Shown: positions 11,021-14,204 of the stretch, piece after piece
How positions within the stretch are numbered: the stretch's first letter is position 1
Layout: every line of letters starts with the position of its first letter
The notes under the pieces: model-generated
Told to the model about the DNA's origin: nothing
What the model saw: the letters and a program-made list of their open reading frames with translations, nothing else
Database searches by the model: none
Made by a program: the position numbers and the translations under genes
From: Undibacterium umbellatum
Lineage (GTDB): Bacteria > Pseudomonadota > Gammaproteobacteria > Burkholderiales > Burkholderiaceae_D
DNA: 64,000 nt
Assembly: GCF_014284125.1 (NCBI RefSeq)
Contig: NZ_JACOFX010000001.1
Location: 186,001 to 250,000 of the forward strand
Direction of reading: 5' to 3'

Positions 11021-13690
11021 ATGAAACCTAAAAACCTTATCTTGTCTGCCATCGCCGTAGTCAGCGTGGCTGTCACTTCTTATTTCCTTGTACAAAAGTC
11101 TAACCAGACTCCAGAGAGCAAAGCGGTAGCTTCTCAGTCTGAGCAAAAGGATACATTTGATCCTGCCAAATTGCCAGAAGACTTGAATGGCTTGCTGGTA
11201 GCCTATCGCAAAATTATCATCTTGCTTGCCGATGAGAAAAAGCTCAATGCCAAAGAACGCAATGAAGCTAACCGGGTAGGTCAGGCTTTATTCCATGAAA
11301 ATCTGGTCAGACTCAATGACCTGGATACTTTTTTCAGTAAATTGAAATCATTCAGCAATGCAAAACGAGAATCCAGCTTTGATACTATCCTGACCTATAT
11401 TGAATCAGGTGAAGATTTATATGATGCAGATCGTCTCGCATTCCGCGAAGTTTTGCTCAAGATGCAAAAACTGATAGCGACAGAACAGACCCTGCCAGCT
11501 ATTAAGCTACACAAACGCGTTACCGATGACTTGAATGCACTCAGTGAAATCGAAAAAGAATACGACAAAGAACTCAAAGAAATTTTCTCTCGTTTTGAGT
11601 CGCGTTCCATAGAACTGAAGCGCGAGCGCTGGGATGACTACATCGCCAAGCTGCGCAAGCTGCATAACCGCGAACAAATCCTCAAGGATTACGGTTTCAT
11701 CCTGCCTTATCCGGAAAAACCGGAAGCAGCCGATGAAAAGGATAGAGAAATTTTCGGCCAGGGCCTGCCTGCCAAGACAGTGGTGCTGACCTTTGACGAT
11801 GGTCCACATGCTACTTACACCGATGAAATCGCGGCGATACTCAAGCAATACAATGTGCCAGGCGTGTTCTTTCAGGTTGGCAAGAACGTCGGCAGCATTG
11901 ATGCGCAGGGCAAGGAATCGCTGAATAAAAATGCAGCAACCAGCAAGAAGCTGTTGAGCGCTGGTCATGTGTTGGCCAACCATAGCTTTAGTCATGCTTT
12001 ACTGTCCAAGCAAAGCGGCAATAATCTGAATGCCGAAATCGAACAGACAGATAAATTGCTGAAGGCCATAGACCCGGCACGATCATCTTTGTTCCGCTTC
12101 CCTTACGGCGCGAAAAACAAAGAAGGCATGCAAATCCTGCAAAAGCTGGGCTTGCGTTCAGTGATGTGGAATATTGATTCCCTCGATTGGGCTGACCCTG
12201 TACCTAATTCGATTGCAGGACGTGTACTTGGCACTTTGGAGAAAGAGCAGCGCGGTATTATTCTTTTCCACGATATCCATGAACGTACGGTTAAGGCCTT
12301 GCCGCTGGTACTCGATAAACTGATTGCTGATGGCTATAGCTTTGCATCATGGGATGGGACGGACTTCAAAATTGCCAAGGGTGGCAAGCCTACGCCAGAA
12401 AAAGTCAGTATCAGTACCGACTATCAAAATAGCTGGGCTATCGTCATTGGTATCAACGACTATGCAAAGTGGCCCAAGTTGCAATATGCAGTGCAAGATG
12501 CCAATGCTATCCGCGACACCCTGATCAATCGTATGGGCTTTGCCGGCGACAAAGTATTGACGCTGACCAATGCAGACGCGACCCGCAATAATATCCTTGC
12601 CTTGTTCCATGAAAAACTGGGACATGGGCAATTGAAAAAAGATGACAGGGTCTTCGTCTTTTTTGCTGGTCACGGAGCAACCAGGAAGCTGAGTTCTGGA
12701 CGCAACCTGGGTTACATCATTCCCGTTGATTCTGACCCTGAGCAATTGTCGGTCGATGCCATCCCCATGACAGATTTGCAGAACATCGCCGAAAGCCTCA
12801 ATGCCAAACATATACTGTTTGTTATGGATGCCTGTTATAGCGGGCTGGGGCTGACGCGCGGTGGTGGCACCAGCGCATTCTTGCGTGAAAATGGCAAGCG
12901 TTTGGGTCGCCAAATGCTGACTGCAGGTGGTGCTGATCAACTGGTTGCTGACGGTGGACCTAATGGCCACTCTGTCTTCACCTGGACTTTGCTGCAGGCC
13001 CTGAGTGGCAAGGCCGACATGAATGGCGATGGTATGATTACCGCGACAGAGTTGGCAGCCTATATTGCGCCCGCCGTATCCAGTGTGTCGCAGCAAACGC
13101 CTGCATTTGGCAGCTTGCCAGGTTCTGAAGGTGGAGAATTTGTTTTTGAAACAAGAGGAGAGGGAGAGTTCCTCAATGCAAAAACCAATCAGTTATCTGC
13201 TGATGCCATTGCTCTCAACAACAAATTGGATGGCGCAGCCAAAGCAGGTGCAGATGCACCGATAGTCATCAAAAACCTGACTGGTGGCGAACAGAAAATC
13301 GCCGCACCTAAAATGGTGGATGGCTCATCAAGACAGCTGGCACAAAGAGCCAATGACCATGGGCTGCAATTGTATAAAGAGAAGCAATATGCACAGGCAG
13401 AAGCCGCATTTACAGAGGCTCTGAAGTACAGGCCTGACTTTGGTCTGGCGGCAAACAACCTGGGATTTGTTTACTTCAAACAGCAAAAATATGCAGAAGC
13501 AGCACGCTGGTTTGAGAATACTTTGCAGATTGATCCTTCTCGTTCAATCGCCTATTTAAATCTGGGTGATGCCAGGGCGCTTTTGAATGACAATGAAAAA
13601 GCAAAAAAAGCTTATGCCAGCTTTCTGGAGTTATCGCCGAATAGTCCAAATGCCAGTTATGTCAAAGAAGCGCTTAAAAAATTGAACTGA
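11021..13690 (+). CDS. Polysaccharide deacetylase-caspase (C14)-TPR fusion protein
   Basis: An 889-residue protein from ATG 11021 (an upstream start at 10991 would add ten residues before the signal sequence). Visible parts: a signal peptide/anchor (LILSAIAVVSVAVTSYFLV); a charged, helical, coiled-coil-like region (about 35-235); a NodB-type deacetylase (about 250-445) with TFDDGPH (Asp259/Asp260), NHSFSH (His321, His325), RFPYG (Arg359) and LFHD (His417); a caspase-like C14 domain (about 471-715) with the dyad His551 (FFAGHGA) and Cys605 (MDACYSG); and a TPR tail (about 775-889). An EF-hand-like loop, D-x-N-x-D-G-x-I-x-x-x-E at 666-677, sits in the caspase domain. The signal predicts an exported or membrane-anchored protein. 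All catalytic residues are present, so both enzymes could be active. The biological role is unknown. Confidence 0.88.
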   Translation: MKPKNLILSAIAVVSVAVTSYFLVQKSNQTPESKAVASQSEQKDTFDPAKLPEDLNGLLVAYRKIIILLADEKKLNAKERNEANRVGQALFHENLVRLNDLDTFFSKLKSFSNAKRESSFDTILTYIESGEDLYDADRLAFREVLLKMQKLIATEQTLPAIKLHKRVTDDLNALSEIEKEYDKELKEIFSRFESRSIELKRERWDDYIAKLRKLHNREQILKDYGFILPYPEKPEAADEKDREIFGQGLPAKTVVLTFDDGPHATYTDEIAAILKQYNVPGVFFQVGKNVGSIDAQGKESLNKNAATSKKLLSAGHVLANHSFSHALLSKQSGNNLNAEIEQTDKLLKAIDPARSSLFRFPYGAKNKEGMQILQKLGLRSVMWNIDSLDWADPVPNSIAGRVLGTLEKEQRGIILFHDIHERTVKALPLVLDKLIADGYSFASWDGTDFKIAKGGKPTPEKVSISTDYQNSWAIVIGINDYAKWPKLQYAVQDANAIRDTLINRMGFAGDKVLTLTNADATRNNILALFHEKLGHGQLKKDDRVFVFFAGHGATRKLSSGRNLGYIIPVDSDPEQLSVDAIPMTDLQNIAESLNAKHILFVMDACYSGLGLTRGGGTSAFLRENGKRLGRQMLTAGGADQLVADGGPNGHSVFTWTLLQALSGKADMNGDGMITATELAAYIAPAVSSVSQQTPAFGSLPGSEGGEFVFETRGEGEFLNAKTNQLSADAIALNNKLDGAAKAGADAPIVIKNLTGGEQKIAAPKMVDGSSRQLAQRANDHGLQLYKEKQYAQAEAAFTEALKYRPDFGLAANNLGFVYFKQQKYAEAARWFENTLQIDPSRSIAYLNLGDARALLNDNEKAKKAYASFLELSPNSPNASYVKEALKKLN

Positions 13691-13733: not shown

Positions 13734-14204
13734 ATGAATGGTGTAAGTTTGAAGGCTATGCGCAGCTTGCTGCGTTTCAGCCATAATGAAGCGGCAGAAC
13801 TGATTGGTGGCGTTCCGGTGCGAACCTGGAGTAGCTGGGAAGCAGGCACGCAAAAGATACCACAAGATGTGATATCCATGATTAATTACCTCATGGTGTG
13901 TCGCAAGAAGGCTATTACAGATACGCAGGCAGCGATAAAAACCTATTACTTGCAAATGCCGCCAGGCACCAGCAAAAAACCGGTTGCACTGGTCTGGTAT
14001 GACAGTTTTGAAGACTGGTGCACCTTGCCCTACCGTGAATCGATCATGTGGAGGCCACAGCAATCTGTAGTGGCCCATCTGATCTCGGTAGAGAATTGTA
14101 GCGTTGTACAGTTTGAGGCTGAAGCCTATGAAAAATGGCTGGGCCGACGTCCAGATAGTGATTCCATGCGCAATCAGTGGGCGGATGAACAGTCACTGGC
14201 CTGA
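13734..14204 (+). CDS. YdiL/Aca2-type helix-turn-helix protein
   Basis: A 156-residue protein. Residues about 5-50 form an XRE-like helix-turn-helix (LKAMRSLLRFSHNEAAELIG, then VRTWSSWEAGTQKIP), as in the Aca2/YdiL-like family (DUF1870). The rest resembles the second domain of that family (ALVWYDSFEDWCTLP, then a FEAEAYEKWLGRRPDS tail). Aca2 represses anti-CRISPR operons in phages, while YdiL is an uncharacterised chromosomal relative. No phage genes surround this copy, so a chromosomal regulator is more likely. The stop is 49 nt from the convergent oxidoreductase. Family assignment is from memory of motifs. Confidence 0.6.
   Translation: MNGVSLKAMRSLLRFSHNEAAELIGGVPVRTWSSWEAGTQKIPQDVISMINYLMVCRKKAITDTQAAIKTYYLQMPPGTSKKPVALVWYDSFEDWCTLPYRESIMWRPQQSVVAHLISVENCSVVQFEAEAYEKWLGRRPDSDSMRNQWADEQSLA

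Follow-up and report, generated by a model that had tools for sequence, protein, structure and literature searches.

Bacterial caspase relatives are often discussed as cell-death proteins. In the 64,000-nucleotide stretch of the Undibacterium umbellatum genome analyzed here (the window; host genome size 6.46 Mb), one gene joins such a protease to a polysaccharide deacetylase, which raises the question of what a single, apparently exported chain might do with both enzymes. The frame runs uninterrupted from an ATG at 11021 to the last base of the stop codon at 13690 and encodes 889 amino acids; a near named relative of the protein, at 97% identity, comes from Undibacterium pigrum. Scanning for a promoter and a terminator at the gene gave nothing that stood clear of shuffles. 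The gene and its parts are as follows.

11021..13690, + strand: whole gene, 889 aa, with anchor, helical domain, CE4 deacetylase, C14 caspase and TPRs (open frame, Pfam, orthologues)
11036..11092, + strand: hydrophobic segment at the N-terminus (residues 6-24), predicted to act as membrane anchor or signal-anchor (hydropathy, model helix)
11156..11749, + strand: unnamed conserved alpha-helical domain, residues 46-243, eight helices (own fold model)
11753..12379, + strand: CE4/NodB deacetylase, residues 245-453, with D259/D260/H321/H325/R359/D389/W390/H417 (PF01522, SpPgdA match, CE4 structures)
12407..13156, + strand: C14 caspase/metacaspase-like domain, residues 463-712, with dyad H551/C605 and S1 acids D493/D603 (PF00656, structure matches, alignments)
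12836..12910, + strand: loop following the catalytic Cys (residues 606-630), a self-processing candidate with basic residues at five positions (81-row alignment, low pLDDT)
13016..13051, + strand: EF-hand-like loop of 12 residues (666-677), flanked by helices 652-664 and 675-687 (sequence, model, 81-row alignment)
13322..13687, + strand: C-terminal TPR array, residues 768-889 (Pfam, AlphaFold2 model, structure matches)

Pfam matched PF01522 (Polysacc_deac_1) to residues 249-380 (E 6.9e-28), PF00656 (Peptidase_C14) to residues 472-686 (E 1.7e-19) and several TPR families to about residues 780-885, amounting to about three TPRs. This bears out the initial annotation, which had placed a deacetylase, a caspase and TPRs on one polypeptide. 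In an AlphaFold2 model of the full-length protein (mean pLDDT 70.7, pTM 0.36) the individual domains are well formed, and TPR structures fit residues about 769-889 with a VIA Z near 20. Because a pTM of 0.36 leaves the mutual arrangement of the domains unreliable, the model does not support coupling in cis of protease and deacetylase. The linkers, for which structure prediction had been proposed, fall at residues 454-466 and 713-768, both with pLDDT under 50, and the second is among the least conserved parts of the protein (27-49% identity outside the closest relatives).

The combination had been called unusual, and a survey of its co-occurrence was suggested. Rarity held up across the class, where 3 of 369 genomes, the window's own included, match the full profile at E<=1e-60; novelty did not, because the architecture was described in 2012 by Asplund-Samuelsson et al. 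as the "Xanthomonas-type metacaspase" (PMC3501461). The available text of that article counts 17 deacetylase-containing metacaspases, usually in the order deacetylase, caspase, one to three TPRs, with TPRs missing from some members and the His-Cys dyad present in all. The window's protein has the same domains in the same order, with the dyad, in one gene, and its computed mass of 98.0 kDa compares with 97-100 kDa reported for the Xanthomonas-type metacaspase. The taxa named in the available text are Xanthomonas, Xylella, Stenotrophomonas and two Acidobacteria, with Oxalobacteraceae not among them, and the question of a role outside Xanthomonas is raised there (PMC3501461). Among the open-access matches listed we found no study of any Burkholderiales member, the names searched being Undibacterium and Janthinobacterium. 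The fusion is a new branch of this known family, not a new kind of system, and what is gained over the known family is more detail on anchoring, on predicted specificity and on calcium sites.

The answer that we favor, and to which we give about an even chance of being right, is that the protein, tethered to the membrane and facing the periplasm, remodels the envelope when triggered by stress or by a partner. Relatives lie at 65 places in the searched genome contigs, and full-length orthologues occur in Undibacterium, Massilia, Duganella, Janthinobacterium, Rugamonas, Roseateles and others. At E<=1e-60, 78 of 294 genomes in the bacterial family and 7 of 398 in the phylum match the full profile (own genome included in both), one of the seven (G483) being a broken copy; by contrast, some C14 domain is found in 88 of 200 phylum genomes. 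Within the genus, 10 of 35 other members carry the gene near full length and three more in pieces, and this patchiness counts against triggered envelope remodelling, as does the existence of decayed copies. The bacterial family contributes 80 matching rows. Most of these (71) are near full length in a single frame without a stop, which rules out that a frameshift merges two genes, the event named beforehand as able to undo the one-gene reading. Five rows span the deacetylase half only (three of the five were checked), and four, from three genomes (G807, G809 and G1022), are broken by stops or frameshifts. The broken copy of G483, a distant genome, contains a stop and encodes its deacetylase and its caspase in separate frames; we read this as apparent decay or an error in sequencing. 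We considered TAG recoding for the G807 copy (L154:4171-7150) and rejected it, decay being likelier given three in-frame TAG codons at differing residue types, DACN for DACY and a divergent C-terminus. A plasmid-borne family was likewise rejected: none of 72,556 plasmid records, a set that may omit records near the window's own genome, covers 80% of the protein in one place, and 434 have some match.

We aligned 81 full-length rows, the window included, of which 74 are distinct; left aside were five duplicate loci, own-genome repeats, contig-edge fragments, one non-family match, L110, L112 and the broken copies of G807, G809, G1022 and G483. Residues D259, D260, H321, H325, R359, D389, W390, H417, H551 and C605 are identical in 81/81 rows, so that the catalytic residues listed in the initial annotation (all of these except D389 and W390) are both correctly placed and invariant. 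Domain order and content are fixed throughout the full-length rows, even in L102, which is 41-64% identical per domain.

Kinship to the published family emerged from four genomes, labelled g190, whose genes match the fusion profile nearly full length at 1452-1461 bits and, in the three checked, align full length with the fusion at 70-71% identity in the caspase and 60-62% in the deacetylase. Their gene order is rnpA-yidC-[gene]-mnmE (Pfam on examples). The available text of PMC3501461 places the Xanthomonas, Xylella and Stenotrophomonas genes in an mnmE/yidC/rnpA context with conserved mnmE adjacency, and this match of context, which is what links g190 to Xanthomonas, argues for the envelope-remodelling reading. 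A quick tree of the 81 rows unites the g190 rows, four in number, in a single clade (support 100) and draws it among Burkholderiales rows, a placement that depends on midpoint rooting and on a fork with support 88; the positions of L102 and L153, both on long branches, are unsure. One copy from Undibacterium, L013 (identical in protein to U. jejuense L083), clusters with Solimicrobium, apart from the window's clade, which hints at possible transfer or hidden paralogy.

The two branches differ at the N-terminus and in their surroundings: the window's branch has a hydrophobic anchor and no mnmE neighbor (a DNA_alkylation and an Aca2/YdiL-like gene flank the fusion in the window), whereas g190 has a lipobox-like motif, found in 5 of the 81 aligned rows (the four g190 genomes and L102). 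Residues 6-24 are the sole strongly hydrophobic stretch of the fusion, with a mean hydropathy of 2.38 over 19 residues against a maximum of 1.17 from residue 31 onward, and the AlphaFold2 model has a helix at residues 3-25. By eye we found no consistent signal-peptidase site after this segment in the window's branch, where the linker is polar or Ala/Pro-rich. Since a hydrophobic anchor in one branch and a lipobox-like motif in the other both fit tethering, the protein looks, from its sequence, membrane-tethered on the periplasmic side, a sidedness that we infer from the families of its domains. Of the earlier description as secreted, the N-terminal export or anchor helix thus stands, and free secretion fits less well than a tether.

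Neighboring genes speak to the idea that the fusion is an anti-phage or abortive-infection caspase. The PADLOC caspase model matches the fusion (E 2.2e-18), and an Aca2/YdiL-like protein is encoded directly downstream at 13734-14204, with a DNA_alkylation protein upstream (both by Pfam). This pair of neighbors recurs in L032-L034 and is absent from L036 and L083, also Undibacterium; the Aca2/YdiL-like gene adjoins the fusion only in some Undibacterium-type loci (the window, L032-L034 and L088). Neither of these two window neighbors, which were the neighbors scanned against PADLOC, has a match there. Neighbors chosen by a composition rule were compared across 62 of the 65 named loci, several of them truncated at contig ends; each neighbor family is found in 15 loci at most, and sharing tracks lineage. 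A defence island is not supported by these results. With an apparently extracytoplasmic protein, and a gene that in g190 sits between yidC and mnmE, we consider a defence role very unlikely. The same comparison found no partner gene travelling with the family; because neighbors are common only within lineages, the fusion probably works alone.

How far does the deacetylase half support envelope remodelling? The full CE4/NodB motif set comprises TFDDGP, H-x3-H, R-x-P-Y, D-x2-DW and L-x-HD; it is complete in the fusion, with its catalytic residues identical in 81/81 rows. CE4 structures fit model residues about 236-453 with VIA Z up to 23.5, and a PDB sequence search matched SpPgdA at 4.9e-28. 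None of the 25 NCBIfam models listed is matched above its cut-off (PgdA scores 115.3 bits, with 800 required). It has the CE4 fold and complete motif set in common with the peptidoglycan deacetylases SpPgdA, BC1960 and Bd3279, from which it differs in being joined to a protease. By family resemblance, the substrate of the enzyme is probably peptidoglycan or a related envelope glycan, whose GlcNAc-type sugars it would deacetylate. The presence of both CE4 and C14 folds in the model, with domains and residues intact, argues for the envelope-remodelling reading.

The preceding helical domain (residues 46-243), folded alone, forms eight helices with a mean pLDDT of 78.3 and a pTM of 0.74. It has no Pfam match and no PDB match at E<=0.001 by Foldseek, and its best VIA Z against known structures is 7.6 (AFMP4P, 121 residues, 3.5 A). 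A BAK/Bcl-2-like identity was dismissed as helical noise, the best Foldseek hit having E 0.37 and an rmsd of 13 A and such proteins being absent from the 50 VIA matches listed. Deacetylase-only homologues that keep the helical domain occur within the same bacterial family (Pfam on one example); because they hold just these two parts, the helical and deacetylase half can stand alone, a point in favor of envelope remodelling. Such homologues may be the ancestral module of the fusion or reduced fusions.

These homologues, together with a stand-alone caspase relative (L157), are what one would expect if the fusion were co-localisation alone, two envelope enzymes on one anchor with no proteolytic switching. 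The poorly ordered linkers, the second of them poorly conserved, suit this account too, as do the members without TPRs noted in the available text of PMC3501461. Set against it is the fixed order and content of the full-length rows, down to the per-domain identities of L102, and we hold this simpler account to be somewhat unlikely. Three of the deacetylase-only homologues are L150:4445-5887 (G899), L151 (G863) and L152 (G837); the starts of L150 and L152 resemble a signal peptide by eye, and G899 carries its deacetylase-only copy and a full-length copy on separate contigs. A different caspase fusion, L016 (G057), is a 686-residue frame whose caspase is 42% identical to that of the window's protein and whose N-terminal part reads by eye like GAF plus a nucleotide cyclase.

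The S1-pocket aspartates of the protease are among the evidence for triggered envelope remodelling. MALT1 and metacaspases fit model residues about 466-712 with VIA Z of 19.5-21.2 (21.2 to MALT1, 20.1 to metacaspase 4). The domain is like metacaspases and the paracaspase MALT1 (C14B) in its fold, dyad and S1 acidic residues and unlike them in carrying an N-terminal anchor and a deacetylase, in lacking the four-aspartate calcium site by alignment and in having an EF-hand-like loop in its p10 part. D493 aligns with the helix-1 Asp of Yca1 and plant metacaspases, D603 pairs, in a weak alignment (E 0.00089), with the Asp located two residues ahead of the catalytic Cys of Yca1, and both are invariant in the 81 rows. 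The corresponding S1 residues are given as Asp95 and Asp211 in TbMCA2 and Asp365 and Asp462 in MALT1 in the available text of PMC4357240; ours were assigned via alignment to Yca1 and plant metacaspases, not directly to TbMCA2 or MALT1. Because D493 and D603 are present, the protease is predicted, on family grounds, to cut after Arg or Lys and not after Asp.

This prediction bears on a proposal made for Xanthomonas-type metacaspases, that the protein is a programmed-death effector: once activated, its two enzymes would attack the envelope of the very cell that made them, with lethal effect. In favor of this, the available text of PMC3501461 ties a homologue in X. campestris pv. glycines to programmed death, and PMC4006831 reports DEVD-type activity in dying X. 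campestris. If it came from this protein, that activity would misfit an Arg/Lys specificity, as the S1 residues do not predict cleavage after Asp. Nor does PMC4006831 tie the activity to a fusion-type gene, since the words 'metacaspase' and 'deacetylase' are both absent from its available text. We judge a death effector unlikely. The Arg/Lys specificity predicted from the pocket gives a concrete test of whether the Xanthomonas 'caspase-3-like' activity could come from such a protein.

Residues 606-630, just after the catalytic Cys, are a candidate, no more, for the site of self-processing: this stretch has conserved basic positions in excess and is poorly ordered. Lys or Arg stands at 613, 622, 626, 627 and 630 in 98-100% of the 81 rows, which makes 5 such positions in 25 residues against 21 among all 468 residues of 245-712, and residues 607-627 have pLDDT under 50. 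The loop also holds many conserved residues besides the basic ones, which counts against the argument. Self-processing was suggested in PMC3501461, the available text of which points out that the reported enzyme measured 55 kDa although the gene encodes about 100 kDa; this supports its place in the envelope-remodelling reading.

Under that reading, a protease of metacaspase/paracaspase type, with the activity expected of its family, would cut after Arg or Lys. As to trigger, self-processing, coupling and biological role, our guess is that a partner docking on the TPRs, perhaps together with calcium at the EF-hand-like loop, would set off the protease; that it would then cut itself in the loop after Cys605, perhaps also at the linkers; that this cut would change how active the deacetylase is or whether it is released; and that nearby envelope proteins might be cut as well. 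Culturable Oxalobacteraceae (Massilia, Duganella, Janthinobacterium) carry this conserved, apparently membrane-tethered extracytoplasmic caspase together with its wall-type deacetylase, and the role of the family could be studied there with little difficulty.

The initial annotation had also proposed calcium control, as in some metacaspases, from an EF-hand-like loop inside the caspase domain. The loop lies where it was placed, at D666-E677, and fits the 12-residue EF-hand consensus between two helices; D666, N668, D670 and E677 are identical in 81/81 rows, and at G671 (loop position 6) 70 rows have Gly and the other 11 Ser. No EF-hand family model is among the Pfam matches of the fusion at E<=0.001. 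The comparison with metacaspases is not supported in the form in which it was made. The TbMCA2 calcium site consists of four aspartates (Asp173, 189, 190 and 220), said to be conserved in Yca1, in the available text of PMC4357240. At the Yca1-equivalent stretch after the catalytic His (residues 552-570), the fusion has no acidic cluster in the 81 rows. Position Cys605+7, which we take to correspond to TbMCA2 Asp220, is Thr in 79/81 rows and Ala in 2/81. Given these two features, the four-aspartate site looks absent from the alignment, and the EF-hand-like loop is a feature distinct from it. According to the available text of PMC6426788, bacterial metacaspases retain an Asp in p10 that matters for calcium in those of type III; D639 and D644, invariant in the 81 rows, are candidates for it by conservation, so the protein may still bind calcium.

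A bolder reading is a one-chain envelope switch, in which a change in periplasmic calcium (entering or leaving, for example on outer-membrane damage) would be read by the EF-hand-like loop, the Arg/Lys caspase would cut itself and the peptidoglycan deacetylase would be released or activated. We think this specific version doubtful, with little more than a slim chance; if true, it would put the chemistry of the cell wall under the control of a caspase. The fusion is not alone in having the loop, because canonical loops occur at the same place in 2 of 12 rows of non-family caspases (Deinococcus L158 and Rhizobium L160, both on plasmids), a sample in which seven rows, from six loci, were hand-picked out of the 434 matching plasmid records. 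A Runella loop (L162) deviates once, and in the other nine rows the loop is degenerate, carries a longer insert, is absent or is unreached. The survey used profile alignment, a regular expression having matched just 3 of 35 loci, and many C14 caspases in the phylum sample align over the p20 part only, so that the loop was not judged there. EF-hand motifs are reported in seven archaeal orthocaspases in the available text of PMC6426788. The Deinococcus and Rhizobium caspases share the place of the loop with the fusion and differ in not being this fusion, having been found through the caspase part only. In L158 (Deinococcus aetherius pDAETH-2), the gene for the EF-loop caspase directly follows that of an I42 protease inhibitor, and a C1 peptidase is encoded another two genes upstream.
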